A DNA stretch of 38,414 bases from contig JAUIFV010000027.1 of the NCBI GenBank assembly GCA_030430155.1, positions 1 to 38,414 on the forward strand, in the 5' to 3' direction. This document shows, piece after piece, positions 4,851 to 38,414 of the stretch (the stretch's first letter is position 1; every line of letters begins with the position of its first letter). The stretch comes from Gammaproteobacteria bacterium. Lineage in GTDB: Bacteria > Pseudomonadota > Gammaproteobacteria > Xanthomonadales > SZUA-5. A program made the translations under genes and the position numbers. The notes beneath the pieces are model-generated. The model did not search any database. It worked only from the letters and a program-made list of their open reading frames with translations, and was not told the DNA's origin.

Positions 4851-5270
4851 CCCAAAAGCAACCTGGGACTCCCTGAATAACTCACGTGGCCGCGACGGCA
4901 CCTGAGAAGTTCGCCAGTAAGGCGGGCGTCGCAGGTCATAGCCTGCGCTCTGGGCAAGACGTCCAACGCAGCTGGCGGGCTTCTCAGGTGCTGTCCCGAA
5001 GGGTTGCGGCCCAAATCGTCTGCTGCGGCGTTGCAGCCCTCGGGCATAGAATGACTATGCCTTTCGGGACTGCGCCTACCAGCAGACGATTTGGACTCGC
5101 AACGCGGCTCGCGTGAGTTATTCAGGGAGTCCCTTGCACACACCGCGTCTTTTTCCCTGAATGCGGCGTTGCTCGTCGTCGCCATAGCGCTGCTATGCCA
5201 CCTCCTCGCGCCTTGCCTCAGGAAAAAATCCACCGGTTGTTCGTACAACTTACTTCTGGGTCACCACACT
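4841..5270. repeat. MITE-like element copy 2, interrupted by another palindrome
   Basis: The ends AGTGTGGTGACCCA (4841-4854) and TGGGTCACCACACT (5257-5270) are perfect inverted repeats matching the ends of the 224-380 element. The core hairpin at 5143-5236 is nearly identical to 258-350 of copy 1. Between the left end and the core sits a separate 269-bp palindrome (4865-5133), so one element appears inserted in another. The left end overlaps the last ten bases of the S41 peptidase gene. Confidence 0.75.
4865..5133. repeat. 269-bp nested palindromic element (cloverleaf-like)
   Basis: Perfect 22-bp terminal inverted repeats (4865-4886 / 5112-5133, beginning GGGACTCCCTGAATAACTC) enclose two long internal perfect stems: GCACCTGAGAAG 4898-4909 with 4980-4991, and CAAATCGTCTGCTG 5012-5025 with 5080-5093. 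Small apical hairpins (GCAGG...CCTGC; GCATAG...CTATGC) cap them. The result is a three-way or cloverleaf fold. No protein is encoded. It could be a non-autonomous mobile element or a structured RNA. Confidence 0.7.
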
Positions 5271-5357
5271 AGGTTCGAGTAGGCGGTCCAACCGCTGCCT
5301 CGGTCCGGTGCCCAGGGCACAACAAGGGCGACCGACACGCGAGGTTGTCGCTGTGCT

Positions 5358-23370: not shown

Positions 23371-23474
23371 CGCTGTCTCCTTGCATGGTTCATGAGGAGA
23401 TGGTGCGGGGCGCACGACGGCATTCCAATTACCTGTGAGGTAAGTCAAAGCGCGCCCACCCAAGACAACAGCAT

Positions 23475-23491
23475 GCGGGCAAGATGCCCGC
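23475..23491. repeat. REP-like hairpin, copy 2
   Basis: GCGGGCAAGATGCCCGC, identical to copy 1, with CAGCAT before it and GGTCCC after it. It ends 6 bp before the stop of the glycosyltransferase gene. Confidence 0.7.
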
Positions 23492-24735: not shown

Positions 24736-24791
24736 GCGCTATGGCGAAGGGTGGTCAGCCGGCCGGGGGCGCGAGTATCTCAGGACCGGGC

Positions 24792-26411
24792 TCACCAGCG
24801 TAGGGTCAGTGTCGCGCTAGCGCACCGCGGGTCGATCTGCAAGACCAGCGTTTGCGCCGCTTGCCGCTGGCCGAATCCCGGCTGATAGCTGTCTTCCTGC
24901 ATCGCCACTGCACCGTCGGCAGCGTACTCAATGGTCCGCCCATCCGGCAGCGCGACTACGCCGTCGGCCTGTACCCGCGATGCCGGATGCAGGTGGAAAT
25001 GCGCTGCCGCCTGGATAAACGACCCGCTGAGCTGGTCGCTGATCTGCAGGCCGTGCTCGTCGAGGCGCCAGCGACGTTGGTGTATCACTGCGCCGGGCAG
25101 GCGGCGGTAGCCGTCATGGGCGCATTCGACGACGATCGCGCCGTCCTCGCAGGTGATCTTCAATCCCTGCGGTCGCGCGCGGCGGGCCACCCGGAAGCCG
25201 CTCCAGACTTCAGACGAGTCCTCACCGTCGACCACCACGCAGTTGTGCGCCGCGCTGCCCCGCTGCCGCACTCGCTCGGCGTCGCTGCCGTAGCGATCGA
25301 TGCCACTGTTGACCAGAATGCGCTGGCCGCGCAGCGACAGCTCGAAGCTCAAGCTGTCGGCGTGGGCATGGCCGGGCAGATAGTCCGGTCCGATCGGGGC
25401 CGCGTCGATCAGCAACAGCGCCTCGCCCAGCTGCAGCCGCAGATAGCCCGACGCGGCCAGTCGCTCCAGCGGCTCGGCCGGCGCAGGCGCTGGAACGGCG
25501 AGGCGATCAGCATAGTCGTGCAGAGCCGCCGGGCTCGGCGCCACCCCGGCCACCGAATCGTTGAAGTGGCTGACCTCACCGTCCGGGTGGCACATCAAGG
25601 CCAGCCAGCGGCGCATGGACGCCGCCCGATCTCGCCATCCCCGCACGGTTTGCGCAGCAATACAGTCAGGGTAGACCTGGGCCAGGTTGATCAGATCGAG
25701 CAGATCCTCCAGAGCCAGCGCGTGATACATCGGGCTGCGTTCGAAATGCCCGCCATCAGCCAGGATCTGTACGTCCAATTCGCGAGCGATCAGCGTCAGC
25801 CCGGTCTGCAGCCAGCGCTGCGCCTCAGCGGAGTCGAAATAGCAACCGGCAAAGACCAGCGCCTTGGCGTTGCTGTACAGGTGATTGCCAAGCAGATGGT
25901 GCTCCAGACGGCGCCGGAGATGACGCACCTGGATCGCCAGCGACTGTTGCGCCGCCGCGTCCAGCTCGCCGCCGCCACCAGTCCACTTGATCCAGTTGAC
26001 GATGCGCAGCGAGGTCGGATAAGGCTCCCAGCCGACCCCCGCCACAGGCGGATTCTCCGTCACCCAGCGCGCGATCAGCGCCGCGTGCCAGTCCCGCCTG
26101 GAGGTCGAGTCCAGCGCATTGAGATCGTCGAAATAGTGCAGGTTGTAGCGCAGCAGATAGCTCAACCCCGGCGCCTGCCAACCGCCCACCGCATCCAGAT
26201 CAATCGTCTCGTTGAGCAGTCGGAACTGGGTCGAACCCACCAGCGAAGGCTTGCGCGCCGCTGGCACCACCCACTCTCCTGTCGTCGACCGCAGCGATGG
26301 CGCTGGACCCAACCGCGGTCGCGGCTTGTATAGCCGAAACCAGATTCGCCCGAAGATCTGGATCGGGCGCAGGTAGCGGACGGTGTGGAAGAGGCGGAGG
26401 AGGGGGGGCAT
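24792..26411 (-). CDS. heparinase II/III-family protein
   Basis: A 539-residue protein with an N-terminal alpha/alpha toroid (WEPYPTSLRIVNWIKW, GNHLYSNAKALVFAGCYF, GGHFERSPMYHALALEDLL) and a C-terminal beta-sandwich (PGHAHADSLSFELSLRGQRILVNSG, read in pieces, and AHNCVVVDGEDSSEVW). The Asn/His/Tyr residues expected for a beta-elimination lyase are present (NH, MYH, HAHAD). There is no signal peptide. Such proteins in polysaccharide biosynthesis loci may epimerise or process uronic-acid-containing chains; whether this one is lytic is open. It starts 56 bp upstream of the glycosyltransferase start, so the two are probably cotranscribed. Confidence 0.87.
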   Translation of the reverse strand: MPPLLRLFHTVRYLRPIQIFGRIWFRLYKPRPRLGPAPSLRSTTGEWVVPAARKPSLVGSTQFRLLNETIDLDAVGGWQAPGLSYLLRYNLHYFDDLNALDSTSRRDWHAALIARWVTENPPVAGVGWEPYPTSLRIVNWIKWTGGGGELDAAAQQSLAIQVRHLRRRLEHHLLGNHLYSNAKALVFAGCYFDSAEAQRWLQTGLTLIARELDVQILADGGHFERSPMYHALALEDLLDLINLAQVYPDCIAAQTVRGWRDRAASMRRWLALMCHPDGEVSHFNDSVAGVAPSPAALHDYADRLAVPAPAPAEPLERLAASGYLRLQLGEALLLIDAAPIGPDYLPGHAHADSLSFELSLRGQRILVNSGIDRYGSDAERVRQRGSAAHNCVVVDGEDSSEVWSGFRVARRARPQGLKITCEDGAIVVECAHDGYRRLPGAVIHQRRWRLDEHGLQISDQLSGSFIQAAAHFHLHPASRVQADGVVALPDGRTIEYAADGAVAMQEDSYQPGFGQRQAAQTLVLQIDPRCASATLTLRW

Positions 26412-26422
26412 AGGGGGTTTGG

Positions 26423-26639
26423 TTTTACGTTTTACGTTTTACGTTTTACGTTTTACGTTTTACGAGGATGAAAAGCGGTAGTCCCGGCATGTTGCAAACT
26501 TAGTCTTGCATTGGTTTCTAGCCTTGGCTTTGGCTTTGGCTTTGGCTTCTAAACGTAAAACCTAAAACGTAAAACCTAAAACGTCTTTGCTTTGGCTTCT
26601 AAACGTAAAACCTAAAACGTAAAACGTAAAACGTCTTCG
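26423..26639. repeat. TTTTACG heptamer array facing a CGTAAAA duplicated block
   Basis: Six perfect TTTTACG units run from 26423 to 26464. The complementary unit (CGTAAAA, some as CCTAAAA) fills two tandem 50-bp blocks, 26540-26589 and 26590-26639, each beginning with a CTTTGGCTTC stretch. A TGGCTT run (about 26524-26548) precedes them. The two sides can pair. The 230-bp gap between genes holds nothing else, and it is strikingly AT-rich against the GC-rich background. Confidence 0.9.
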
Positions 26640-26641
26640 CC

Positions 26642-28768
26642 CTACCCCATCTCTATCGCTCGCTCGCTAACCTCAAAAATCTCCTCCGCCGCAATCGGCG
26701 ACGGCTCGCCGGCCGAGATCGCGTTGACGTAGGCTGCCGCGCAGGCGGCTTGTCCCTTGTCCTGTCGCCACAGCCGCTGTTTGCTGAAGCCGCTCCAGCC
26801 GTGGCCGCGCAGGATGCGGAAGTTGTCCAGCTGCAGCATACGTCCGGCGCAGCTGACTTCGATGCGTTCCTTGGCCACGGCGCGGTGGCCGTTGGCCAGG
26901 TAGTGGATGCTGCTGATCGATCCATCCGCGTGGGCGAGCTGGATCATCACCGTGTCCGCGCAGCCGCCGTCCATCGCCACCCGCTGCGCGTCAGTGATCG
27001 GATGGCCGGCCAGATCACGCGCCAGGTCGATGAAATGACAGGCCTCGCCGATGATCCGACCGCCGCCGATGGCGCGATCCTGGGTCCAGTGATCGGCGGG
27101 GATGGCACCGGCGTTGACCTGCATGCTGATCGCGCGGGGCGCACTCAGCGTGGCCAGCAGGCTGTGCATCTTGCGCACCTGCGGCGCAAAGCGGCGGTTG
27201 AATCCCACCATCAGCAGCGGCGGCCGTCGCTGCGCCTCCGCCGCGCGGCTTTGGGCCTCGGCCAGACCGCTGCGGATCTGCTCCAGCTCATTCGGATTCA
27301 GACAAAGCGGCTTCTCCACGAATACGTGCTTGCCTCGCTGCAGCGCCTCGATCACGTAGCGGGCGTGGCTGTCGTGGCGGGTGGCAATCACCACCGTATC
27401 GATCTCGTCATCGGCGATGGTCGCCGAGGCGTCGGTGGCGGAACGGACAAAGCCATGCTTGGCGGCGAAATGCGCCGCCGACACGCCGGCCTGGCTGACC
27501 AGGGTTTGCAGCTGCGCACCGGCGGCGGCGAAAGCCGGAATCAGCACGCGGCTGGCGTAGTTGCCGGCACCGATGACGCCGATACGCGGCTTGCGCTCGC
27601 CGGAGGCGGGCACCGGCTTCGCTGTCGCTACGGCGACCACATTTGCCACGCGCGCCGAGGCGGCAGCGGCGTAGCGCAGCAGGATGCCCAGCGACGGCGC
27701 CTTGCCGGCCAGCAGGTCATAGGCCTCGGCCGCCTGCTGCAGCTCAAAACGATGCGAAACCAGCGCCTCGGACTGCAAGGCGCCGACCGCGAACATGTCA
27801 AGTACCGCCTCGAAGTTGCGCTGCTCGGTCCAGCGCACCAGGCCGACCGGATAGTCGTGACCGTGCTCCTCATAGTCCGGGTCATAACGCCCCGGCCCGT
27901 AGGAGCAGCTGGCCTGGAAGCTCAGCTCTTTTTCGTAGAAATCCGCCCTGGACAGCTCCAATCCGGTGACTCCGACCAGCACGATGCGGCCGCGCTTGCG
28001 ACACATGGTCGCGGCCTGGTGGACCGGCTCGCTGCTGGAGGTCGACGCGGTGATCAGCACCGCGTCGACGCCACGACCGCGCGAAAAGCGCTCGGCCAGC
28101 GGCAGCGGATCGACTTTGGACAGATCGGCGGTCTGCGCGCCGAAGCGCTCGGCCAGCGCCAGCCGTTCCGGATCGAAGTCCAGTCCCAGCACCCGGCAAC
28201 CCTGAGCCCGCAGCAGCTGCACGGTGAGCAGGCCGATCAAGCCGAGCCCGGAAACCACCACGCACTCGCCCAGAGTGGGCGCTGCCAGGCGTATCCCCTG
28301 CAGACCGATCGCAGCCAAAACCGTGAAAGCTGCCGCTTCGTCCTCCACGCCATCGGGAATCTTCGCGCACAGATTCTTCGGCACGCACACCACCTCGGCA
28401 TGCTTGCCATTGCTGACGACCCGGTCGCCCGGCTCGAAGCCCTCTACACCCTCGCCTACTTCAACCACGACACCGACGTTGCAATAGCCCAGCGCCAGCG
28501 GCTGATCGAGCTTGCTGCGCACCGCCTCAATGGTCGGCATCAAGCCGTCGGTGCGCACCTTGTCCAGCACCATGCGCACCTTGTCCGGCTGCTGGCGGGC
28601 CTTGGCAATCCAGCCGGCGCGGCCGAAATCCACCATCATCCGCTCGGTACCGGCCGACACCAGGGTCGTGCGGGTATGAATGAGCAGGTGACCCGGTAGC
28701 ACCTGCGGGCTGGGCACCTCGGCCAGCGTGGTCTCTCCGTTGGCCAGGTTCTGCAGGATCTGCTTCAT
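26642..28768 (-). CDS. bi-domain oxidoreductase: MDR alcohol dehydrogenase fused to Gfo/Idh/MocA
   Basis: A 708-residue fusion. Residues about 1-370 are a medium-chain dehydrogenase (SAGTERMMVDFGRAGW, LGYCNVGVVVEVG, GDRVVSNGKHAE, NAD loop GLGLIGLLTVQLL). Residues about 390-705 are a Gfo/Idh/MocA oxidoreductase (IGVIGAGNYASRVLIPAF, DTVVIATRHDSHA, EKPLCLNPNE). This fused type is regularly found in cell-surface polysaccharide loci, where it probably oxidises or reduces a sugar nucleotide or polyol; the substrate is not known. It leads the minus-strand polysaccharide group and is separated from the lyase by the TTTTACG repeats. It starts at ATG 28768, downstream of the lasso-cluster terminator, so it needs its own promoter. 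Confidence 0.9.
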   Translation of the reverse strand: MKQILQNLANGETTLAEVPSPQVLPGHLLIHTRTTLVSAGTERMMVDFGRAGWIAKARQQPDKVRMVLDKVRTDGLMPTIEAVRSKLDQPLALGYCNVGVVVEVGEGVEGFEPGDRVVSNGKHAEVVCVPKNLCAKIPDGVEDEAAAFTVLAAIGLQGIRLAAPTLGECVVVSGLGLIGLLTVQLLRAQGCRVLGLDFDPERLALAERFGAQTADLSKVDPLPLAERFSRGRGVDAVLITASTSSSEPVHQAATMCRKRGRIVLVGVTGLELSRADFYEKELSFQASCSYGPGRYDPDYEEHGHDYPVGLVRWTEQRNFEAVLDMFAVGALQSEALVSHRFELQQAAEAYDLLAGKAPSLGILLRYAAAASARVANVVAVATAKPVPASGERKPRIGVIGAGNYASRVLIPAFAAAGAQLQTLVSQAGVSAAHFAAKHGFVRSATDASATIADDEIDTVVIATRHDSHARYVIEALQRGKHVFVEKPLCLNPNELEQIRSGLAEAQSRAAEAQRRPPLLMVGFNRRFAPQVRKMHSLLATLSAPRAISMQVNAGAIPADHWTQDRAIGGGRIIGEACHFIDLARDLAGHPITDAQRVAMDGGCADTVMIQLAHADGSISSIHYLANGHRAVAKERIEVSCAGRMLQLDNFRILRGHGWSGFSKQRLWRQDKGQAACAAAYVNAISAGEPSPIAAEEIFEVSERAIEMG

Positions 28769-28836: not shown

Positions 28837-28862
28837 AAAAAAAAGCGCAGCCGAAGCTGCGC
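28837..28862 (-). terminator. rho-independent terminator after the lasso precursor
   Basis: On the minus strand GCGCAGC-TTCG-GCTGCGC (28845-28862) is followed by eight Ts (28837-28844). It begins 26 bp after the stop of the precursor gene and closes the lasso operon. Confidence 0.92.
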
Positions 28863-28888: not shown

Positions 28889-29050
28889 TTAGGAGGCGAC
28901 CGGTCCCTGCTCCTGCAGCGTCATCGGTCCGATCGGAACCAGACGCTCGGTGGGAAACACCGGCGGTCCGGATTCAGTCGCGCGCACCGACAATTCCTCC
29001 AGCTTGGGGGTTTGCCATGCTTTGCGCGCTTGCGTGCCTTGGTTGGCCAT
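28889..29050 (-). CDS. predicted lasso peptide precursor (53 aa)
   Basis: A short gene translating to 53 residues. The leader (about 1-26) contains WQTPKLEEL, a Trp-for-Tyr version of the YxxPxL motif bound by B1/PqqD-type proteins, and Thr25 at the -2 position required by many B2 peptidases. Cleavage after Glu26 would release a 27-residue core beginning SGPPVFPTE, with Glu at core position 9, fitting a 9-membered N-to-side-chain macrolactam. An 8-membered Gly1-Glu8 ring is possible if cleavage is one residue later. The tail begins with the only core Arg (R36) and ends in a C-terminal Ser53, the residue phosphorylated in paeninodin. It lies 56 bp after the cyclase gene and just before a terminator. 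It has no clear ribosome binding site, and the function is inferred from motif and context. Confidence 0.78.
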   Translation of the reverse strand: MANQGTQARKAWQTPKLEELSVRATESGPPVFPTERLVPIGPMTLQEQGPVAS

Positions 29051-29106
29051 AGGAGTTCAGACCCACTAAAAGATGCGCTAAAGACTACCTTAGGCGGGCC
29101 TCGCCC

Positions 29107-30996
29107 TCAAGCCGGACCTACCGGCGTTTCCAGGTCCATATCGGCCAGCGCCTGGGCATAGCCGATCAGCCACTCGGCGTTGGCCAGCAGCACCCAGGCC
29201 AGACCGGCGTCCGTGCCGTCCAGTCGGCCGCAGACGCGCTGCAATCGTTCACGATCCAACAGTCCTTGGCGGTCGCTGCCGGGGTCCAGACAGCGCAATT
29301 GGGCAAGCACGCTGTCGCGATCGCGGGAGGCGGAGGTGGACTGCTGCAGATACCCGGCCAGACCGCTTTCGTGTTTGCTCAATGACCAGATCGCATCCCC
29401 GCGCCAGTATTCGGCACAGGCGCGTCGGAACAGGTAGCGGGAATGGCCGTCACGGAGGTAGTACTCGCCCGGCAGGCTCAAGCACAGCTCCAACACATCC
29501 CGGTCCAGCAGCGGATAGCTGTAGCTGATGCCGTGCCGTTTGCCGTGGCAGTACCAGGATTCCATGCGCTGGCTGAGGTAGCCATCGGACAAGCGCCAAA
29601 GCTGACCCTGGCGAACGCTGAGAGCGATGGCCAGCGACCAGCGCGCATTGCGCTTGAAGGGGTGCCGTTGACGCAGCATCGCTGAGGCCAGCCCTTCGAT
29701 GCTGCTGGACGACCGCAGCCGAGCTGCGAAGGGACCGAGCAATTCGCGCCGCGCTCGGCGCAGCAGCGAACCCAATCCGGGCCGCCCGCGGCCGCCGCGA
29801 TTGACCGTCAACAGGCGCAATAGGGCGATCCAGCGGCCGCGCAGTAGCAGTTCGGGCGCCAGCCCCAAGCCCTGGTGACTGGCGACCTCGTCGCCGCCCC
29901 AGCCGGAGATCAGATGGCTGACCCCGTCAGCCTGGGCCTGGACCTGCACGTGCTGCTCCAGCGCCATCGACTCCCAGGGCAATCGCGGATCAACGCTGGC
30001 GGTTTGGCTCTGTGCACGGCCCGCTTCGATCGCCTGCGGATCCAGGAAAGTCACCGGGATCTGCTCGGCATCAACCAGCCGATTGAGCTGACGCAGCTCG
30101 CTGGCGTTCTCGGCGACCACCGAACTCGGCGTCCAGGAGTAGAAGGTCGGGAGCGCCGCACTGCTGTCGCGCTGCCGCCAGAGCATCGCGGCCAGGGTCG
30201 AACAGTCCATACCGCCACTCAGATGACAGCCGACCCGTCCGGCGACAGCGGTCCGTCTGCCGATCGCGGTCTGGACGCGTTGCTGCAGCGCTGCCGCGGC
30301 CTGATCCGCCGATAGCGCCTTGGACTGCGCGATCCGCTGCGGATCCCAATAACGCGCCGCGCTCTGCTCGGCGCCCCGCCACTGCCGCCAGCAGCCCGGC
30401 TCCACGCTGCAAACGCCATCGATCAGCGTCCGGCCGGGCTGCGGCGCCCCGCTACCGCCGGCATACAGGCGCCGGTGCGCCTGGCTCAGATCCAGGCTGG
30501 GCGCGTCCCCGCACATCGCCAGCAACGCGCGCAGCTCGGATGCAAACGTGACTCCGGCCCTGCCCTGCGAGTAGTACAGCGGCCGCGCGCCGACCACGTC
30601 ACGCGCCAACACCAGACGCCGCTGGCGCGGACACCACAGCGCGCAGGCGAAATCGCCACGCAGCCAGTCCCAGGTCTGCTCGGCATAGCCCAGAAAGCAG
30701 CTCAGGATCAGTTCGGCGGCGTTCGCCTCGGACGACAGCCTAACGCCGACAGCGCTGAGCTTTTCACCCAACTCGTCGACGTTGTCGATGCGCGCGTCTG
30801 CGGCGCAATACCAGTCCTGGATGTGTGCAAAGCCGGTCGGATCGGTAGGCCAGTGGCGCAGCGCGACGACAGTGCCCTGCCCTTCCGAGCTGCGCGCCAG
30901 GTCCAGCACCGGCAGATCACTCAGCGCGCGTAGTCCGCGGTCGATGCGGGGCTGCAGATCGTCGGATTGACCGGCAAATCCGATGATCGTACTCAC
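29107..30996 (-). CDS. lasso peptide cyclase (asparagine-synthetase-like, C protein)
   Basis: A 629-residue asparagine-synthetase-fold enzyme. The N-terminal half keeps the Ntn glutaminase fold but starts MSTIIGFAG, lacking the catalytic Cys2 of AsnB, so it cannot hydrolyse glutamine. The synthetase half keeps the ATP pyrophosphatase loop SGGMDCS (260-266) and GWGGDE. This combination is the signature of lasso cyclases, which adenylate a Glu/Asp side chain and join it to the core's N-terminus. Its GTG start overlaps the B2 stop (GTGA), and the precursor follows after 56 bp. A role as a general amidotransferase in polysaccharide assembly is the main alternative but is disfavoured by the B1/B2 neighbours. 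Confidence 0.88.
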   Translation of the reverse strand: MSTIIGFAGQSDDLQPRIDRGLRALSDLPVLDLARSSEGQGTVVALRHWPTDPTGFAHIQDWYCAADARIDNVDELGEKLSAVGVRLSSEANAAELILSCFLGYAEQTWDWLRGDFACALWCPRQRRLVLARDVVGARPLYYSQGRAGVTFASELRALLAMCGDAPSLDLSQAHRRLYAGGSGAPQPGRTLIDGVCSVEPGCWRQWRGAEQSAARYWDPQRIAQSKALSADQAAAALQQRVQTAIGRRTAVAGRVGCHLSGGMDCSTLAAMLWRQRDSSAALPTFYSWTPSSVVAENASELRQLNRLVDAEQIPVTFLDPQAIEAGRAQSQTASVDPRLPWESMALEQHVQVQAQADGVSHLISGWGGDEVASHQGLGLAPELLLRGRWIALLRLLTVNRGGRGRPGLGSLLRRARRELLGPFAARLRSSSSIEGLASAMLRQRHPFKRNARWSLAIALSVRQGQLWRLSDGYLSQRMESWYCHGKRHGISYSYPLLDRDVLELCLSLPGEYYLRDGHSRYLFRRACAEYWRGDAIWSLSKHESGLAGYLQQSTSASRDRDSVLAQLRCLDPGSDRQGLLDRERLQRVCGRLDGTDAGLAWVLLANAEWLIGYAQALADMDLETPVGPA

Positions 30997-31442
30997 GCTG
31001 TAGCCTCACTGCGTTGCCGGCTCAAACAGGCCACCGACAGGTATTCGCGATGCATAGGCGCTCCGCTGACCACGCGCTGGCCGCAAACCACCCAGGCGTG
31101 GGCGCGCATGCCAGAGGTAGGCGCGGCCGCATTGGCCAAGCGCCGTGCACCCAGATGCAGCAGCGGCCGATAGCCGCGACGGGACAGCATTGCCATCGTC
31201 GCCAACGCCTGCGGCAGGCAGTCCGCACGCCAGAACACCCGTCGCGCCAAGCCGGCGATATGGCGCTGGATTCTGGCCACTTCCGGGCCCTCCTCAAGAT
31301 CCTCAGCCTGCAACGCCTGGGCACGCTTCAAGCCGGCCAAACGCATCCACCAGCGCATCGGCAGCAAGCACAGCAGGCGAGCCCAAAGCAGCGCCAACAG
31401 CGCTTCGGCGAGCAGCCTTGGGCTGATCCGACTATCCGCCAT
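30993..31442 (-). CDS. lasso peptide B2 leader peptidase (transglutaminase-like)
   Basis: A 149-residue protein of the Transglut_core3/B2 family. The nucleophile Cys75 lies in RADCLPQALA and His115 in AHAWV, spaced as in McjB and B2 proteins. The usual acidic third residue after the HAWV strand is not evident (VVSG there), a variation seen in split B2 proteins. It should cut the precursor leader after the Thr(-2) position, with the separate PqqD-like protein supplying leader recognition. It overlaps the HprK-like gene upstream by 11 bp and the cyclase gene downstream by 3 bp, so the three are tightly coupled. Confidence 0.88.
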   Translation of the reverse strand: MADSRISPRLLAEALLALLWARLLCLLPMRWWMRLAGLKRAQALQAEDLEEGPEVARIQRHIAGLARRVFWRADCLPQALATMAMLSRRGYRPLLHLGARRLANAAAPTSGMRAHAWVVCGQRVVSGAPMHREYLSVACLSRQRSEATA

Positions 31443-32343
31443 CGATCTGCTCCGCCCAGGCCAAGCCGCTCAGGCGCTCGGCTAGCGCATCGCCCAGGCG
31501 GGCCAGGAAATCGACCCCAGTCGGCAACATCGGTCGCGCATAGCTCAACACCGGAGCCCCAGTCGCCAAGCGCATCAGCTGCGCAGCCACACCGTCCACG
31601 CCATCCTGGCTGACGATCAGCGCGCGCAGGCGCTGGGTGCCGCGCAAGCTGACAAGCTCGGTCCTGGTCGCGCCCGGGCGATAGGCCGGCAGCAAGACCG
31701 CGCCGACCGGCAGTGCCTCGCCATGCACGCTCCGGGTAGCCAGATAGGATTTGGGTATGCCGGTCCGAACTGTAGTCGCTGAAGCCGCCCCATCCATTTG
31801 ATACAACGCGTCGGGCCACAGCTCATGCGCCTGGCTGCCGGGCAGCGCAAGCAGTCCGCTAGCCCCTTTGACCAGCGCCACGCCATGATCCGATAGCAGA
31901 CCCGCCCCGCGCTGCACCAGGGCGGCTGCGGCGACCGATTTGCCGCTGCCGCCTGGGCCCGCGATCAGCACCGCTCGACCACGCCAGGACACCGCGCTGG
32001 CACGCAGCCAGCACTGCCCCAACATCGCCAGCGCCTGGCGGACTCCGCTGCGAATGAAGTAGTGGGCGAACTGATCCGCCTCGCCCCAGACCTCGCAGCG
32101 CAAGTGTTCAGCATGCCTCTGCATCTGCCACTCCAGCTGGCCGGGGAGCGTCCAGCTACGGCTACCGTCGGCGGCCACGGCAGTACCGGCCAGCGCGGCC
32201 TCATCGGCTCGGCTAGACGTACGCTGGGACCGGAATTGCACGTCGATGCATGGGCCGGAACTGCGCTCTGCGGACATCGGCAGCGTGGGCAGGGCAATGG
32301 CTGACTCGATGCGGCAGCCGTAGGCGTCGTAACGGCTAGCCAT
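31432..32343 (-). CDS. HprK-like kinase 1 (candidate lasso-precursor kinase)
   Basis: A 303-residue protein related to HPr kinase and to the precursor kinases of paeninodin-type clusters. The Walker A loop GPGGSGKS (129-136) follows VLIA. The next strand reads LLSDHGVALV, where HPr kinases and the second kinase of this cluster have an Asp pair. An ELWPDALYQM segment and a KSYLATR stretch follow in family order. It lies between the PqqD-like B1 gene and B2, the place occupied by precursor kinases in known clusters, and probably phosphorylates the C-terminal Ser of the precursor (inference). The Asp-to-His change raises doubt about activity or suggests altered chemistry. Confidence 0.82.
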   Translation of the reverse strand: MASRYDAYGCRIESAIALPTLPMSAERSSGPCIDVQFRSQRTSSRADEAALAGTAVAADGSRSWTLPGQLEWQMQRHAEHLRCEVWGEADQFAHYFIRSGVRQALAMLGQCWLRASAVSWRGRAVLIAGPGGSGKSVAAAALVQRGAGLLSDHGVALVKGASGLLALPGSQAHELWPDALYQMDGAASATTVRTGIPKSYLATRSVHGEALPVGAVLLPAYRPGATRTELVSLRGTQRLRALIVSQDGVDGVAAQLMRLATGAPVLSYARPMLPTGVDFLARLGDALAERLSGLAWAEQIDGG

Positions 32344-32355
32344 CGATGCCGCTGA

Positions 32356-32652
32356 TCAACTGTCGGCGGGGGGCTGGCTCTGATTCAGCAGACCCGCTTT
32401 GAGCAATTCGCTGCAAAAAGCCATCACTTCGGCCCGGCAGCGTTCCGGTGCAACGTCGTACTCGGCGACCAAACGATCCACCAATTCCTCGACACTGCAC
32501 GGGCGCTCGCACAGATCCCAAATCCGCCGACCCACCTCACCGCTGCCAAAATAGCGATTCTGGTCCATGCTGAGCAGCACCAACTCGTCATCCAGCGAGG
32601 CGCTGAGGATGTCGTTGTCACGTACCAGCGGGGTCTGCGCGCTAAGCTCCAT
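32356..32652 (-). CDS. PqqD-family leader-binding protein (RRE, lasso B1)
   Basis: A 98-residue winged-helix PqqD-like protein, started at ATG 32652 where the family begins (MELSAQTPLVRDNDILSASL); the frame extends upstream without family features. The beta-strand LVLLSMDQNRYFG and the helices IWDLCERPCSVEELVDRLVAEYDV (in two parts), then CSELLKAGLL are typical. It should bind the precursor leader and hand it to B2 and the cyclase. It ends 12 bp before the HprK-like gene. A 163-bp gap upstream, holding a REP-like hairpin, separates it from the sulfotransferase. Confidence 0.87.
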   Translation of the reverse strand: MELSAQTPLVRDNDILSASLDDELVLLSMDQNRYFGSGEVGRRIWDLCERPCSVEELVDRLVAEYDVAPERCRAEVMAFCSELLKAGLLNQSQPPADS

Positions 32653-32780
32653 GCCGAATTCTGTGTTTGCCGTGGCTTGTCCGGCGCTGATGATGACTGC
32701 TTGAACGGGCGCTAGGCAACTGCGGTGTCGGATCATCGACCTGAAGTCGGTGCGACGGGCAGATCAGGAGCCAAGAGCAT

Positions 32781-32797
32781 GCCGGCAGGATGCCGGC
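32781..32797. repeat. REP-like hairpin, copy 3
   Basis: GCCGGCAGGATGCCGGC, with the context AGGAGCCAAGAGCAT before it as in copy 1 and GCTCCTCA after it. It lies in the only sizeable gap inside the lasso operon, between the sulfotransferase and the PqqD-like gene, where it may alter mRNA stability or expression ratio. Confidence 0.7.
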
Positions 32798-32815
32798 GCT
32801 CCTCAGTTCAACGCC

Positions 32816-33640
32816 TTAGCAGTAGCCCATCTTGCGCATCGTTTGCCCATGCGCCTGGAGCAGCCTGTCGGCCAATTCGGGGGCAAGCTCGTCCCGCCAA
32901 CGCCCGACCCGACCGGCGACAAAGAATCGTCGTCCAGCGGGCGCCTCGGCAAAACCGTGGGTGGATTCCAACGCCGCAGCCTGCTCAAAACGCGTCGCCT
33001 CTATGGCTCGCGCCAGCCGATGCTCGCACGGCTCCAGCCGCAGGTGCCTAACGAGTCTGGTGAATGCCTGATGCGGACTGTCGTGCAAGTCCTCATAGCG
33101 CAGCACCAGCAATTTCTCCGATTCCAACCCCAACCAGGAACGCAAATGCTCAGACCAGCTCCCGGTGTACACCGGCACGTCAGGACCGATGCCGCGGTCG
33201 TAGAGGGGCAAACGATGCCCGGAGTCATTCAGCCAGCTCACCGCGGTCTGCTGATCTACGCCGGCGAAAGCGGCGTAGGACAGCGCCACGTCGCGGGGGT
33301 CTCGAACGATCAGCACGAGGCGATTGTCCACCGCTTGCGGCAGCCAGCATACGCCGCCGTCCACTGCAGCGGCATGCGTCTTCCAGCAGCGCTGGTCTGG
33401 CCCGCTGGTGATCGCCCTTTGCAAGGCGATCGGATGCAGCTGCGCCAGCTCCTCACGGCTCAAATCAGCGCTATCGATGCCCAGATGGCGATCGATCAGC
33501 TGTCGTGCCGCCGGGTTCCCGGTGGGCAGCAGATCGTCCAAGCCGACGGCTGAGCCATCTGCCAGATAGCTGCTCAGAAACCAGCGCAGCCAGGTATTGC
33601 CGGACTTGGGATAGGACGCCAGCCACCAGGCCTGCTTCAT
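32816..33640 (-). CDS. PAPS-dependent sulfotransferase
   Basis: A 274-residue cytosolic-type sulfotransferase. SYPKSGNTWLR near the N-terminus is the 5'-phosphosulfate loop, and IVRDPRDVALSYAAF in the middle is the 3'-phosphate-binding strand; the C-terminal FFVAGRVGRWRDEL corresponds to the RxGxxGxW motif in changed form. It should move sulfate from PAPS to a hydroxyl or amine. Its ATG overlaps the stop of the second kinase gene (ATGA), placing it in the lasso operon. The predicted core has no Tyr, so Ser or Thr would be the peptide targets; a non-peptide substrate is possible. Confidence 0.87.
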   Translation of the reverse strand: MKQAWWLASYPKSGNTWLRWFLSSYLADGSAVGLDDLLPTGNPAARQLIDRHLGIDSADLSREELAQLHPIALQRAITSGPDQRCWKTHAAAVDGGVCWLPQAVDNRLVLIVRDPRDVALSYAAFAGVDQQTAVSWLNDSGHRLPLYDRGIGPDVPVYTGSWSEHLRSWLGLESEKLLVLRYEDLHDSPHQAFTRLVRHLRLEPCEHRLARAIEATRFEQAAALESTHGFAEAPAGRRFFVAGRVGRWRDELAPELADRLLQAHGQTMRKMGYC

Positions 33641-34560
33641 GGCAGACAGCTGTCAGAAAGCAGCCGCTGCTGCAGCTGAGCAGCGCTGGCGCTCAGCCGC
33701 TGCAAATCTCGGGGTCGATGCAAGCGATAGATCGGCACCAGCTCGAGCAGCGCCATCAGATGCTCGGCAATCGCCTTCTCGTCCACCAGCAGCGCCGCCA
33801 TTGCCGGTCTATACAGGCTGGCTCGCCACTGAGCCAGCCCGTCCAGGCCGCGCAGCCGTTGCACACCAACGCCGACCTGATCGCCTGCGTCTTCCAGAAC
33901 CACCAACGCGGACAACCGATGAGGCTGCTGCGGCGCGGCCGACTGGGGAAGGTAGAACTTGTCCCGTCCGCTGAGCTCCTGCGCAAGACCCGCTGGGCTA
34001 TGGCCAAACTGATCGAGGGCGTCGGACCAAAGCTTGAGTCGGGCCAGACCCGGATCGATCCGCACCGATTCGCCGTCAGCGCGCAGCGGCGCGATATCGT
34101 CACTGAGCAAGGCGCCGGCAAACTGGCGTAGCCACTGACCGGCCATGGTCGACTTCCCCGCGCCGCTGGCACCGGTGAAGGCAATTACCCCGCCGCCGGC
34201 GCTGACTGCCGACAGGTGATGCGGAAAGCGCCCACGCAGATACAGCGCCGCCGCCAGCCCGCTGCCGAGCAGATAGGGACGCATCTGTGCCCACTCGGCA
34301 TCCTGCATGGCAACACCGATGCGGTCGCGCTCCACCGCAAGACCGCCGACTTGCGGAATCCAAAGCTCGATTCCGCCCTCGCAAGGCCGCAAGCCCATGC
34401 CCTCGTCCACCCGTTCGCTCATCGGCGCGAAGCGATCCAGCGACTCGGTTTCGACGCGCAGGAACTCATCGGCCGCCGTCGCCGGCTGCAACTCGGGCAT
34501 TGGATGCTCGGATTCGATATCCAGTCCAAACACCCGATAGTGATGCAGCGGTTCGCTCAT
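33637..34560 (-). CDS. HprK-like kinase 2
   Basis: A 307-residue HprK-related kinase with Walker A GASGAGKS (about 129-136), followed by LLSDDIAPL with the Asp pair intact, and later LKLWSDALDQF and KFYLPQSAA at the same relative places as in kinase 1. The N-terminal half (YRVFGLDIESEHPMPEL) matches the start of kinase 1 (YDAYGCRIESAIALPTL), so the two are paralogues. It overlaps both neighbours by ATGA junctions (arginine methyltransferase upstream, sulfotransferase downstream). Having two such kinases in one lasso operon is unusual; this one looks catalytically complete. Confidence 0.83.
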   Translation of the reverse strand: MSEPLHHYRVFGLDIESEHPMPELQPATAADEFLRVETESLDRFAPMSERVDEGMGLRPCEGGIELWIPQVGGLAVERDRIGVAMQDAEWAQMRPYLLGSGLAAALYLRGRFPHHLSAVSAGGGVIAFTGASGAGKSTMAGQWLRQFAGALLSDDIAPLRADGESVRIDPGLARLKLWSDALDQFGHSPAGLAQELSGRDKFYLPQSAAPQQPHRLSALVVLEDAGDQVGVGVQRLRGLDGLAQWRASLYRPAMAALLVDEKAIAEHLMALLELVPIYRLHRPRDLQRLSASAAQLQQRLLSDSCLP

Positions 34561-35762
34561 CCGGGCAGGCGCGCCGCACGCAGCTTCGGGTCGCTAGCGC
34601 CCAGCGCACATTCGAAGCGCCAGCGCTCCCCTGCGCTGACCGGCACCGGCTGCGGCAGCAGATACAGCGGATGGCGCCAATGGTTGTCGGCACGGGGCTG
34701 CTGCGGATCGGTGTCGATGTGTTGGTTGTCGCTGAGCTGCAGATCGAACCACAGCAGCAACCCGGCCACAGCTCCGCCTCTGGCCATTTCCACTTCGCAG
34801 CGCACCGCACCGGGCCGCCCCTGGGGCTGGGTCAGGTCGATACGGCACAGGCGCTGTGCCGGACCGAGTGCCGTCATCTGGCCGGCCAGGGTGGCGGTGA
34901 TCAGGCGCTGTGGCAGCGGCGCCGGCTCGAAGTTGGCCAAGGCGCTGAAGTCGAATCCATACTCCGTCGCCCAATCCTCCAGGCTGGTCGCGTCAAAGGA
35001 TGGCTGCCGACCAGCGTTCTCGATCAGGGCAACCGGTGCCGCCCAGATCTGCAGCTGCGACGGCAGCACCCTGGCGCCCGGTTTGAGAAAGCGCTTCATC
35101 GCGTCCGCCGTCGACTCAATCACCTGCTCGCCCAATGGGTCGTCGCCGATGATCTCGGCCACCAGCAGATCGGCGCGCTCGGGCAACTGCAACGATGTGG
35201 AATGTCCGCGCAGCACGGTGATCCGGTCCGCCATGTTGTTGTCGGCGATCAACCGCTCGGCCGCCGCCGCCACCCGCGTTGCCTCGATCGCGTAGACCCG
35301 GCGCGCCCCGGCCCGCGCCGCCGCCATCGCCAGAATGCCAGTGCCGGTGCCCAGATCGACGACCACATCGTCGCGCCTGACCGTCTCCGCGATCGCTCGC
35401 AGATAGCTTTGGGTGCGCACCCGATCATTGAGCATCGCCGCGTGGATGCCGGCGCCATCGAACCCCGACCCGTCCAGCGCCCGCGCGTCGGAAGCCTCCG
35501 GCACCAGCGCGCCCGCCTCCACCAGTGCGCGGATGGTCTCAGTCAGCTGCATCCACTCGCCCACTCCGGTCAGCGAACGGCGCAGCCTGGCAAGCGCCTC
35601 GCGCACGCTGCAAGGGTGGCGAAAGGCATCCAGCGCCGCCAGCGTGTGCGTGCCGCCGTATCGGGTCGGTCCGGCTACCTGCAGCGCAAATCGATCGGCG
35701 GCCTCGCAGCGCACGCGCAGACCTGGAGCGATCACCAGCGGGGCGTCGGCGTCGAAGCTCAT
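34557..35762 (-). CDS. PRMT-type arginine methyltransferase with PqqD-like N-terminal domain
   Basis: A 401-residue protein. Residues about 100-401 follow the protein arginine methyltransferase layout: the YxxML-like HAAMLNDRVRTQSYLRAI, the SAM loop VVVDLGTGTGILAMAAARAG (133-152), a double-E loop AEIIGDDPLGE with E203 and E212 spaced as in PRMTs, and an HW loop (NHWRHPLYLLPQPVPVSAGE near 360). Residues about 20-90 (ALDAFRHPCSVREALARL ... TETIRALVEAGALVPE) look like a PqqD/RRE winged helix. The fusion suggests recognition of a peptide leader and methylation of an Arg; the lasso core has a single Arg at position 10 (inference). It ends in an ATGA overlap with kinase 2 and starts 6 bp after the upstream methyltransferase. 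Confidence 0.82.
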   Translation of the reverse strand: MSFDADAPLVIAPGLRVRCEAADRFALQVAGPTRYGGTHTLAALDAFRHPCSVREALARLRRSLTGVGEWMQLTETIRALVEAGALVPEASDARALDGSGFDGAGIHAAMLNDRVRTQSYLRAIAETVRRDDVVVDLGTGTGILAMAAARAGARRVYAIEATRVAAAAERLIADNNMADRITVLRGHSTSLQLPERADLLVAEIIGDDPLGEQVIESTADAMKRFLKPGARVLPSQLQIWAAPVALIENAGRQPSFDATSLEDWATEYGFDFSALANFEPAPLPQRLITATLAGQMTALGPAQRLCRIDLTQPQGRPGAVRCEVEMARGGAVAGLLLWFDLQLSDNQHIDTDPQQPRADNHWRHPLYLLPQPVPVSAGERWRFECALGASDPKLRAARLPG

Positions 35763-35768
35763 CGGGGC

Positions 35769-36371
35769 CTAGCGAGTTTGCGGAATGTAGGTACGCACCA
35801 ACCGGTCCAGCTCCGCACTGTCGCAACGCTCAGGCGTCCCCACCGCCCACAGATCGAAATAAGGTGCCTTGCGCTGAATCACCGTCGAGGAACCGTAGCG
35901 AGCCAGAAGCAGACTCATCTTCAAGGTCTTGGCGGTGAACCCACAGTGATGCGCCATGTAGTGGTTGCCCTCGGCAATGGCCCCGCGGAAGCCGTAGACG
36001 ATGTCGACGGCAGCGCAGTTGCTGCCCGGCGTAACCTCCTCGGTGAGCTTGTCCGCGACGATCAGCTCGGCGACCGACTGCAGGTCGGGACAGGTGATTA
36101 CAAAGAATCCATTCGGCTTGAGCACCCGCTTGAACTCCGCCAGCGCCTTGGGCACCTGGTGGGCGTAGAGGTGCTCGATGTTGTGGCTGGAATAGAGCGC
36201 CTCAAACTGCCCATCGTCCACCGCCGACATGTCGTCGATGGAACTGACGATATCGGCACCGCTGTCCGGATCGATATCCAGCCGCACTTCAGTCCACTGC
36301 GGGTGGCGAATGCCGATCGTGGTCTGGTCAGCACGAGCGTCGCCGCAGCCGACGTGTAAGAACTTGGGCAT
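35769..36371 (-). CDS. class I SAM-dependent methyltransferase
   Basis: A 200-residue methyltransferase from ATG 36371, where the family begins (MPKFLHVGCGDARADQT); the frame is open upstream but runs into the promoter of the divergent gene. The SAM loop is LHVGCGDA, the acidic strand end is VRLDIDPDSGADIV, and YSSHNIEHLYAHQVPKAL with GFFVITCPDL completes the fold. It is probably the first gene of the main lasso run, since the next gene upstream (36459) is divergent. The substrate is unknown; O- or N-methylation of the peptide or of a sugar are both possible. Confidence 0.85.
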   Translation of the reverse strand: MPKFLHVGCGDARADQTTIGIRHPQWTEVRLDIDPDSGADIVSSIDDMSAVDDGQFEALYSSHNIEHLYAHQVPKALAEFKRVLKPNGFFVITCPDLQSVAELIVADKLTEEVTPGSNCAAVDIVYGFRGAIAEGNHYMAHHCGFTAKTLKMSLLLARYGSSTVIQRKAPYFDLWAVGTPERCDSAELDRLVRTYIPQTR

Positions 36372-36458
36372 ATCAGGGCCTCGGCGCGAGCTGCGGATGA
36401 GTAGTGATCGAAGGTCTAAGATATCAGGCATCCACGCGGCCCAACGACACCACTGCGA
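36372..36458. promoter_or_regulatory. divergent intergenic region, likely promoter of the lasso operon
   Basis: These 87 bp separate the divergent starts at 36371 (-) and 36459 (+). Any promoter that drives the main lasso run as a unit should lie here. I see no confident -35/-10 pair and no clear operator. Confidence 0.4.
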
Positions 36459-37217
36459 ATGCGTCCGACCCCTTTCCACGCCGTCTATCATTTGTTCGCG
36501 GTCAATCATTGGCAGGCCATCGTGCGCGAGCAGCTGGGCCTGCTGCTGCCGCACGCCTCGCTGGCCACGCTGAGGGTCACTCTGGCGACGCCGCCAGTGC
36601 CGGCGATGACCTCGCTCAGCGGCAGGACGGTGGGATTTGGTGCCGATGCATTCGCCAACCGCCTGCACGCCATAGTTGCTGAACTTAAGCCCGACGCGGG
36701 GCCGGAGCTGACGGTCGAGGTCGTTGATGCTGGTCAGTTCGAGCACCCTGCGATGCTGGCGGTTGAATCACTGGCGAAGCACGGCGACGATCCGGTGCTG
36801 TACTGCCACGGCAAAGGGGTCAGCTACAGACCGCCTCAGCCGCAGATGGAGCGGTGGCGGCAGCACCTGAACACGCTGCTGCGCGATGCACCGAGCTGGG
36901 TGGAACGACTGAAGACTGAAGCCATCGACGCCGTCGGTCCCTGCCTGCTGGACCACGCTGAGTACGGCGTCAGCTTCTACGCCGGCAACTTCTGGCTGGC
37001 CAGGGCCGGCTATTTGCGCAATCTGCCCGACTACGCCGACTTCCTGCGAGCCCCACCAGCCGGTTGGCCACCGGCGCAGAGTCGTTTTCTGGCCGAGGTG
37101 GCAATCAATCGCGGAGGCACGATGCGTGGGATCGCCATTGATGGACGGCGCTACTCAATGGCGGACATCCGCGAGAATGATGGCGCAGACGACGCCGCAG
37201 CGCACCGGCAGGGCTGA
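36459..37217 (+). CDS. glycosyltransferase-like protein, unknown specificity
   Basis: A 252-residue protein of the type found as uncharacterised glycosyltransferases in surface-polysaccharide clusters. YCHGKGVSY (about 117) and FYAGNFWLARAGYLRNLP (about 173-190) are its most distinctive blocks, resembling the 'K-G' and 'GNfWwa' motifs of WavE/GT-A-like proteins. It is the only plus-strand gene in the right part, divergent from the methyltransferase with an 87-bp shared upstream region, and convergent with the TylF-like gene. Whether it glycosylates the lasso product is unknown. Assignment to a GT family is tentative. Confidence 0.62.
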   Translation: MRPTPFHAVYHLFAVNHWQAIVREQLGLLLPHASLATLRVTLATPPVPAMTSLSGRTVGFGADAFANRLHAIVAELKPDAGPELTVEVVDAGQFEHPAMLAVESLAKHGDDPVLYCHGKGVSYRPPQPQMERWRQHLNTLLRDAPSWVERLKTEAIDAVGPCLLDHAEYGVSFYAGNFWLARAGYLRNLPDYADFLRAPPAGWPPAQSRFLAEVAINRGGTMRGIAIDGRRYSMADIRENDGADDAAAHRQG

Positions 37218-37259
37218 AGGAGCAACGGGCACTCAGCGGGCAACAGGTGCGAAAAGCAT

Positions 37260-37276
37260 GCCGGCAAGATGCCGGC
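37260..37276. repeat. REP-like hairpin, copy 4
   Basis: GCCGGCAAGATGCCGGC, with AAGCAT before it and GCTCCCAT after it. It sits between the convergent ends of the glycosyltransferase-like gene and the TylF-like gene, where a hairpin could act on both transcripts. Confidence 0.7.
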
Positions 37277-37314
37277 GCTCCCATAACAGATCCCACAATC
37301 CGCAGCGACGTCGT

Positions 37315-38169
37315 CTATATCGCCGTGTCTTCCGGCTCGGCGCGCCTGCGCCAATAGACCCCGGTCCAGTCGATCTCCTGCAGCGGCTCGACGATGCCGT
37401 TCTGGTGGCGAAAATCTTCGACCGCTCGGCGACAGCCGGGCAAAGCATAGTCGTCGATGATGCAATAGCCTCCCACGGCGAGCTTGGGATACAGAGCCCT
37501 CAGCGCGTCCATGGTGGAGCCGTACATATCGCCGTCCAGCCGGATCAGGGCGAACTCCCTAACTGGCAGGGCCGGCAGAGTGTCGGCAAACCAACCTTCA
37601 ACGAATACGACCTGTTGGTCCAACAGTCCGTATTTGGCAAAGTTTGCTTCAACGGTCGCCCGGTCCACTGCCAGCTCAGCGTAGGTGTGCAGATCGTCGC
37701 CAGCGTCTGCCGGATATCGGGTAGTGTCGGGTGGCGGCAGGCCGCGGAACGAATCGGCAACGTACACACGACGATCAGTAACGGCATGCGCTGCGAGCAC
37801 CGCGCGCATGAATATACTGGCCCCACCGCGCCACACGCCGGTCTCAATCAGATCGCCGGGGATGCGGTCTCTAAGTACGCTCTCCAAGCACTGCTGAAGA
37901 TTGTCCAGGCGCCGAAGGCCAATCATGGTGTCAGCCAGTCCGGGCCAGATGCGGCCCTCGTCACGTGCCTGTGCCGACACCTGAGGCGACCTGACGATTT
38001 GCATGTTGCGGCGCTTCAGCACGCGCCGCAGCTGTCTCAACGCCCAGCGCTTGAGCCGATTGCCAACCTGGTCGGGATCCACAGGCCGAGCGGGCTCCGG
38101 CCACAAGCGATAGCACAAAGTCTGCTTTATCAGATCCAGGTAACGTTGCTCTGACGTTGGCGTTGGCAC
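37315..38169 (-). CDS. TylF/macrocin O-methyltransferase-like protein
   Basis: A 284-residue SAM-dependent methyltransferase of the TylF family. GTG 38169 is chosen because the family start (EQRYLDLIKQTLCYRLW) follows at once; the frame is open upstream but overlaps the sulfotransferase. Family blocks are MIGLRRLDNLQQCLESVL, DLIETGVWRGGASIFMRAVL, VYVADSFRGLPPPD, RLDGDMYGSTMDAL and GGYCIIDDYALPGCRRAV. The metal-binding acids in DGDMY and DDY are present. Relatives O-methylate sugars of antibiotics and other small molecules; the substrate here could be a sugar or the peptide. It lies 23 bp after the partial sulfotransferase gene and may be cotranscribed with it. Confidence 0.88.
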   Translation of the reverse strand: MPTPTSEQRYLDLIKQTLCYRLWPEPARPVDPDQVGNRLKRWALRQLRRVLKRRNMQIVRSPQVSAQARDEGRIWPGLADTMIGLRRLDNLQQCLESVLRDRIPGDLIETGVWRGGASIFMRAVLAAHAVTDRRVYVADSFRGLPPPDTTRYPADAGDDLHTYAELAVDRATVEANFAKYGLLDQQVVFVEGWFADTLPALPVREFALIRLDGDMYGSTMDALRALYPKLAVGGYCIIDDYALPGCRRAVEDFRHQNGIVEPLQEIDWTGVYWRRRAEPEDTAI

Positions 38170-38192
38170 GCTTGCCGGCCTCTGGTGCCCAG

Positions 38193-38414
38193 TTAATCGA
38201 CAGCGTAGCCGAGCCGCTGCATGGTCTGGGCGAACTCGCCTTCGATGCGCTGCGCCTGGGCGTCGCTGAGCTGGTCGACCCAACCTCCGGCGGTCCCGGA
38301 GCGGAAGAATCTAGTCGAGCGATCCGGGCGCTCGGCAAAGCCATGGATCTGCTCAGCTTCGGCCAGTCGGTCGAAGCGGCAGCGCTCTACGGCGGAACGC
38401 AGCTGCCCAGTGCC
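38193..38414 (-). CDS. sulfotransferase, C-terminal part (cut by window edge)
   Basis: The last 73 codons of a gene whose start lies beyond 38414. HGFAERPDRSTRFFRSGTAGG (in pieces HGFAERPDRST and RFFRSGTAGGW) with WVDQLSDAQAQRIEGEFAQTM is the C-terminal PAPS-binding end of a sulfotransferase and parallels the ending of the complete sulfotransferase at 32816 (HGFAEAPAGRRFFVAGRVGRW). The RxGxxGxW signature is better kept here (RSGTAGGW). It is the second sulfotransferase of the cluster and shows that the locus continues to the right. Confidence 0.85.
   Translation of the reverse strand, partial: GTGQLRSAVERCRFDRLAEAEQIHGFAERPDRSTRFFRSGTAGGWVDQLSDAQAQRIEGEFAQTMQRLGYAVD

Follow-up and report, generated by a model that had tools for sequence, protein, structure and literature searches.

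A kinase-type lasso peptide operon with a putative RRE-fused arginine methyltransferase on a gammaproteobacterial contig

We analysed a 38,414-nucleotide stretch of DNA from a gammaproteobacterium of the Xanthomonadales (the window), which is the whole of contig C243 of a draft genome (5.06 Mb, 287 contigs) and is readable up to position 38414. The list of open reading frames (ORFs) and the Pfam and NCBIfam profiles showed a minus-strand gene run from 36371 to 28889 that encodes, in this order, a class I methyltransferase (MT), a protein arginine methyltransferase (PRMT), the HprK-like kinase K2, the sulfotransferase ST1, B1, the HprK-like protein K1, the peptidase B2, the cyclase C and the precursor A of a lasso peptide (Table 1). 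The lasso identity of this cluster is near certain, and its kinase type is known; its most novel part is the PRMT, which carries a predicted recognition element for ribosomally synthesised and post-translationally modified peptides (RiPPs). All of these genes, as well as a TylF-type methyltransferase and a second sulfotransferase, had been named in the original prediction, and all were recovered by profiles or alignment.

Table 1. Features of the lasso peptide locus and of contig C114
Feature	Position	Strand	Basis or remark
Intrinsic terminator	28837..28862	-	GCGCAGC-TTCG-GCTGCGC stem then T8; directly after precursor gene
Lasso precursor gene A, 53 aa; leader MANQGTQARKAWQTPKLEELSVRATE, core SGPPVFPTERLVPIGPMTLQEQGPVAS	28889..29050	-	NF033524 match
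Predicted 27-residue core; ring Ser1-Glu9 (isopeptide), Arg10, C-terminal Ser27	28892..28972	-	Inferred from leader spacing
Lasso cyclase C, GTG start	29107..30996	-	PF00733, GATase_7
Lasso leader peptidase B2	30993..31442	-	NF033537, 71.3 bits (cut-off 33)
K1, HprK-like, probably degenerate	31432..32343	-	Kinase alignment
B1, discrete RRE (PqqD fold)	32356..32652; ORF reaches 32736	-	PF05402, NF033536
Palindromic repeat (REP-like) GCCGGCATCCTGCCGGCATGC	32777..32797	-	Between B1 and ST1
Sulfotransferase ST1	32816..33640	-	PF00685, E 1e-20
K2, HprK-like lasso kinase, His-Lys-Asp-Asp intact	33637..34560	-	Kinase alignment
RRE-PRMT fusion methyltransferase, 401 aa	34557..35762	-	PRMT_C PF22528 + PrmA; profile and fold
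PRMT catalytic and beta-barrel domain; double-E (AEIIGDDPLGE) and NHW loops intact	34593..35450	-	Alignment, profile
Predicted RRE domain of PRMT, residues 1-92	35487..35762	-	Profile comparison, Foldseek
Class I MT (MPKFLHVGCGD...), first operon gene	35769..36371	-	PF08241, E 2e-8; start inferred
Divergent gene, glycosyltransferase-like by eye	36459..37217	+	No Pfam match; cluster membership uncertain
TylF-type methyltransferase	37315..38168	-	PF05711, E 2e-104; GTG start near 38168 inferred
Second sulfotransferase, C-terminal 73 aa	38193..38414	-	Cut by contig end; missing N-terminus probably C114:1-596
C114 precursor, YEAPRVIEIGQIGATLQ/GARMSTNLDGGFSMTAMGGTVGLTTAF	C114:3238-3408		
C114 B1	C114:7709-7999		

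Six junctions in the run overlap or lie within 12 bp (C/B2, -4; B2/K1, -11; K1/B1, +12; ST1/K2, -4; K2/PRMT, -4; PRMT/MT, +6), where seven had been counted before. The gap between B1 and ST1 is 79+ bp and contains a palindrome resembling repetitive extragenic palindromic (REP) elements, of which the window holds three intergenic copies (the others at 37256-37276 and 23471-23491) when 0.01 would be expected. The real start of the MT gene lies at about 36371 and not at 36746. At the other end, the terminator stem lies 26 bases past the stop codon of the precursor gene, and the 53-nt terminator region folds with -21.1 kcal/mol (z -2.3 compared with shuffles). This marks the end of the operon, so that the genes past it (oxidoreductase, heparinase-like, glycosyltransferase) form a separate unit. 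A consensus terminator scan did not return this terminator, probably because G-U and A-U pairs absorb the T run, and a consensus promoter scan gave no match above chance.

An hmmsearch profile built from the window PRMT together with 13 relatives matched PRMT7, PRMT6 and PRMT1 with E-values of 1e-49 to 1e-44, and the AlphaFold (AF2) model of the protein (mean confidence, pLDDT, 84.8) matched PRMT7 in Foldseek (E 2e-24). The S-adenosylmethionine motif, the double-E loop, the THW-type loop (with Asn as its first residue, NHW) and the C-terminal beta barrel are all present. Comparison of residues 1-92 with the lasso B1 profile by hhalign gave a probability of 94% and a score of 42.7, whereas the best of 100 column shuffles scored 16.8 and other parts of the same PRMT about 10. 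The model of this domain (pLDDT 90) matched TigE, MccB, ThcOx, TruD, TbiB1, PqqD, MibB, TfuB1 and PbtF in the PDB; with E-values from 0.002 upwards these Foldseek matches are weak, but they are coherent, the top ~30 being almost all RiPP or pyrroloquinoline quinone (PQQ) enzymes of the same fold. By profile and predicted structure, the first ~90 residues of the PRMT are a RiPP recognition element (RRE). The PRMT assignment of the original prediction thus stood, while the N-terminal RRE and the intact active site had escaped it.

In a tree of 82 PRMT relatives, with SH-like branch support (SH-aLRT) obtained by a quick method, the window PRMT fell within a 17-row clade (99% SH-aLRT) that holds five actinobacterial proteins and two further lasso loci, the remainder being stand-alone genes or unresolved. 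The lasso loci are L030 (A-K-B1-C-PRMT-GT4-NTF), whose source belongs to the genus of the window, and L043 (C-A-K-PRMT, with the core AGKKSNSEASKRPRN), which comes from the Polyangiaceae. The annotated actinobacterial loci encode a phosphotransferase, a HopA1-like protein, a flavoprotein decarboxylase, YcaO, TfuA, a PhyH oxygenase and a C1 peptidase, a gene set which identifies them as thioamitide clusters. Deletion of tsaG abolishes histidine bis-N-methylation in thiostreptamide S4 (PMC8153245), and the TsaG-type histidine methyltransferases of Streptomyces and Nonomuraea (L045, L047, L048, L049, L054, L059) were seen to be RRE-PRMT fusions, so that the RRE may be how the thioamitide methyltransferase recognises its substrate. 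The double-E loop is lost in the thioamitide members of the clade but kept in the lasso members. Stand-alone RRE-PRMT genes were also seen at L041 (9872-11167) and L042 (4636-5862), at a conserved place by gap-pgk-tpi-secG in Polyangiaceae and Labilithrix and with no lasso cluster directly at the gene, and at L032 (9797-11029) and L033 (9467-10672), adjoining a molybdopterin oxidoreductase which the window oxidoreductase (16087-18198, 16 kb from the window PRMT) resembles.

The precursor matched the 'paeninodin family lasso peptide' model NF033524 with an E-value of 7.5e-6 and 25.6 bits, just under the curated cut-off of 27. It has a W(-15)xxPxL leader, Thr(-2), Glu9 and a C-terminal Ser, and its core ends in GPVAS; Arg10 is the sole Arg of the core, which contains no His. 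We compared six W-type precursors, that of the window (WQTPKLEELSVRATE/SGPPVFPTE, leader and core start) and five found beside cyclases in genomes of the same order: L027 (WEKPELAELPIGRTA/SGATTDVYE), L138 (WQQPKLGQLYLKHTK/GGPVVGPGE), L137 (WTTPVIKQLRLKQTQ/SGKPHTHE), L136 (WQTPELQTLDVRQTL/TADLPGDE) and L135 (WVRPQLKEHDIEETL/SGPVGGDTE). Trp -15, Pro -12 and Thr -2 are identical in all six, an acid occupies core position 7-9 in all six, and five of the six end in Ser. The paeninodin model was also matched by the precursors of three relatives, that of L136 scoring over the cut-off. The shared leader spacing fixes the cut site and so gives a predicted core of 27 residues with its ring between Ser1 and Glu9, in agreement with the core length first proposed, and together with the C-terminal Ser it places the cluster in the proteobacterial kinase (paeninodin/Syan-like) type. 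The product would be a threaded Ser1-Glu9 macrolactam, for which the core less one water gives a calculated monoisotopic mass of 2785.447 Da.

The core lasso set, that is, the B1 RRE, the B2 transglutaminase-like peptidase and the C Asn-synthase-like cyclase, is present together in the operon. Among the NCBIfam models, that for lasso isopeptide cyclases matched the cyclase best (E 2e-47), with 162 bits and thus short of its curated cut-off of 525; the protein has the SGGMDC nucleotide motif and lacks the N-terminal Cys of a true amidotransferase. B1 scored 73.6 bits with NF033536 (cut-off 80), and its start is more likely at 32652. The Cys and His of B2 are conserved in an alignment of B2 proteins, and no third residue of the triad was conserved across the set aligned; a B2-like locus on contig C95 had no lasso genes adjoining. 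It is general knowledge that XrtA/exosortase loci also hold Asn-synthase-like, PqqD-like and HprK-like proteins, and the cyclase and B2 might on that ground be read as serving polysaccharide assembly, with the 53-codon ORF there by chance. However, the cyclase scored 94 bits with the XrtA amidotransferase model TIGR03108 (cut-off 817) as compared to 162 bits with the lasso model, the HprK_rel_A model TIGR04352 gave 28 bits (cut-off 200), and the window does not classify as an XrtA/exosortase locus. B2 is over the lasso cut-off, the precursor matches its family, and the related loci carry matching precursors. A non-lasso function is thus largely refuted and highly improbable. The paeninodin-like kinase type that had been proposed for the cluster was upheld.

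Both HprK-like proteins gave weak Pfam and NCBIfam matches, yet each could be aligned to kinases from other lasso clusters. In an alignment of 29 kinases from lasso loci, K2 retained the His, Lys, Ser, Asp and Asp residues, while K1 had lost two of the four catalytic residues (His to Arg, second Asp to His) and was the sole protein of the 29 with both changes. The His-to-Arg change was found in three of the 29 (K1, L026_599 and L094_202), each of which is one member of a two-kinase cluster. A tree of the kinases showed many long branches, too many for a placing of these three in one clade. The nearest relative of K2 was the kinase of L136, where the precursor ends in Ser; a PDB sequence search with K2 returned P-loop noise only. 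According to reviewed work, PadeK, ThcoK and SyanK act on the linear precursor, where they phosphorylate the Ser at its C-terminus, and they require His-Lys-Asp-Asp for this (PMC9266682; PMC8498205), while BsfK phosphorylates Ser3 and needs H148, G163, K169, S170, D186 and D187 (PMC10368454). Since K2 kept its catalytic residues and K1 lacks two, phosphorylation of Ser27, which is likely, was assigned to K2, with K1 as probably its degenerate partner. Both kinase genes of the original prediction are therefore present, but only K2 has all four catalytic residues.

ST1 shares 34% identity with the L094 sulfotransferase and 32% with its L027 counterpart, and kinase-sulfotransferase pairs recur in both of these lasso clusters. 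A search of plasmid DNA with ST1-K2 gave no match. A putative sulfotransferase gene was remarked on in Firmicutes lasso clusters (PMC8498205), and our literature search on lasso peptides and sulfotransferases found nothing beyond this remark. Sulfation of a Ser or Thr hydroxyl of the peptide by ST1 is plausible. The polysaccharide-type genes directly downstream (bi-domain oxidoreductase, heparinase-like, GT4) and the occurrence of the RRE-PRMT outside lasso loci in the same family would also suit an ordinary kinase-type lasso cluster, in which the peptide is only phosphorylated at its C-terminus and the PRMT, the sulfotransferase and the MT serve the polysaccharide locus or a cellular protein. 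We consider this unlikely, as the terminator separates the operon from the polysaccharide genes, the sulfotransferase and PRMT genes each overlap K2 by 4 bp, kinase-sulfotransferase pairs and, in about 18 lasso loci, PRMT-like genes recur, and an RRE on the PRMT would be useless in polysaccharide synthesis.

In the pathway that we propose, B1 would bind the WxxPxL leader and K2 would phosphorylate Ser27, at the C-terminus of the linear precursor, in the manner of PadeK and SyanK, while the RRE-PRMT would bind this leader too, by means of its own RRE, and N-methylate Arg10, the first residue past the ring, and ST1 would sulfate a Ser/Thr hydroxyl. B2 would next cleave after Glu(-1), and C would then close the 9-residue Ser1-Glu9 macrolactam around the tail; K1 would act as the degenerate partner of K2. 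The analysis establishes which genes are present, where the operon ends, the family of the precursor, the folds of the RRE and the PRMT and the state of the catalytic residues, while every modification and its site in this scheme are inferred; we estimate at roughly 70% the probability that this is a complete lasso peptide operon of the proteobacterial kinase type with such tailoring.

The chances that the RRE-PRMT N-methylates Arg10 are about even. An Arg occurs in each of the three lasso cores that adjoin an intact RRE-PRMT, compared with about 7 of 20 other lasso cores (p about 0.07, hand-computed), an association that is no more than suggestive. Several points weigh against the proposed tailoring: this association is small, with three cases; the thioamitide relatives methylate His and not Arg, though without the double-E loop; stand-alone RRE-PRMT genes occur in related genomes (L027 18510-19649, L029, L032 and L033), so that the RRE-PRMT may have another substrate; kinases of this type can pick other serines, as BsfK does, and the core also holds Ser1, Thr8 and Thr18; and, as had been noted originally, no exporter is in view within the window. 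The His substrate of the thioamitide relatives, and the cores without Arg that adjoin shorter PRMT-like proteins in other lasso clusters, would also fit a target other than the core Arg, such as a leader Arg, the ring acid (as for aspartimide-forming enzymes) or the C-terminal carboxylate. The window PRMT has kept the double-E acids and the NHW loop, unlike the thioamitide and shorter relatives, and its core offers a single Arg and no His, which makes such a target rather unlikely compared with Arg10.

These shorter PRMT-like proteins form a second group. We scanned 84,980 species genomes, and among the best 80 PRMT relatives about 18 were encoded within 10 kb of a lasso-type cyclase; as judged from cluster and genome sizes, chance alone would place a gene there well under 1% of the time. 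Their usual company is B1, a kinase, a nucleotidyltransferase and a YxxPxL precursor, and they adjoin lasso cyclases in Acidobacteriota, Myxococcota, Rokubacteria, Chloroflexota and Pseudomonadota. Loci with a short PRMT-like protein by a lasso cyclase, kinase and nucleotidyltransferase are L058, L063, L066, L070, L074, L079, L080, L094, L097, L104, L105, L107 and L111. The RRE is missing from these proteins, and most of them are also without the second Glu and the HW loop. Since Arg is absent from several of the cores beside them, a core Arg cannot be the substrate there, and they must have another function; a search of the literature accessible to us found no description of them. Sets of two kinases, a sulfotransferase, a PRMT-like protein and lasso genes were also found on contig C114 of the same genome and in a Chloroflexi metagenome-assembled genome (L094), so that the combination of kinases, sulfotransferase and PRMT, thought at first to be without known parallel, recurs on genome mining.

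Contig C114 (L026, 1-14586) carries a second complete lasso set with B2, C, its own PRMT-like protein, two kinases (one with the His-to-Arg change), a sulfotransferase, an OGT-like enzyme and a nucleotidyltransferase. It opens inside a sulfotransferase gene without the C-terminus, and the window closes inside one without the N-terminus. Placed on full-length relatives, the two fragments follow each other with a gap of ~5-9 residues, the contig ends share no sequence overlap, and the genome holds no other unpaired fragment of this sulfotransferase family. The fit and the lack of another fragment make it likely, but unproven, that C243 and C114 adjoin, with two lasso clusters side by side. The TylF-type methyltransferase and the second sulfotransferase, reported originally as adjoining the window cluster, are both there but probably belong to the second cluster. 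Glycan (exopolysaccharide-type) clusters often adjoin lasso clusters of this type (L080, L105, L138, L139, L026 and window 23497-28768). Elsewhere in the window, two closely similar stretches (227-400 and 5091-5282) encode SFSLNAALLVV..ALLC.LLAPCLRKKS, an unexplained repeat.

A June 2026 review lists the modifications of lasso peptides and, in the passages that we searched, names neither Arg methylation nor sulfation (PMC13352647), and a 2025 survey of RREs describes many fusions and no PRMT by name (PMC12710340); our literature search on lasso peptides with PRMT or methylarginine found no relevant report. Arg10 is thus a concrete single-residue prediction for a modification absent from these passages of the review. 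We propose, tentatively and at somewhat less than even odds, that a phosphorylated and sulfated lasso peptide also receives methylarginine from a PRMT fused to an RRE, that this enzyme belongs to a RiPP methyltransferase family common to lasso peptides and thioamitides, and that the second PRMT-like family, with its altered active site, is an as yet undescribed lasso tailoring enzyme that is widespread in several phyla. PRMTs, best known from eukaryotic chromatin, would then be tied to peptide natural products through a leader-binding domain, and the RRE-PRMT would be a genome-mining handle across two RiPP classes.

Comparison with the paeninodin/Syan-type clusters (PadeK, ThcoK, SyanK) showed that A, B1, B2, C, the HprK-like kinase, and the Ser-ending core are common to both, with the window precursor matching the paeninodin model just under its cut-off, whereas the window adds the RRE-PRMT, the sulfotransferase, a second, probably degenerate kinase and the class I MT, and has no ABC exporter in view. 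The bsf cluster of Bradymonas (PMC10368454) shares the kinase catalytic residues and the discrete B1 and B2, and its YxxPxL motif has the same -17..-12 spacing as in the second (C114) cluster. However, bsf has no PRMT or sulfotransferase, its kinase phosphorylates Ser3 and it has Ile(-2). LihM/TceM-type O-methyltransferases and StspM also tailor lasso peptides but belong to other families (PIMT, C-terminal carboxyl MT) without the RRE-PRMT architecture. Eukaryotic PRMT1, PRMT6 and PRMT7 have the fold, the double-E loop and the HW loop in common with the window PRMT, which differs in its fusion to a predicted RRE and its place in a RiPP operon. TsaG of thiostreptamide S4 and the related thioamitide methyltransferases share both the RRE-PRMT architecture and the clade of the window PRMT, but they act in thioamitide and not lasso biosynthesis, have lost the double-E (TTDIVGND.LD) and have His as their substrate.

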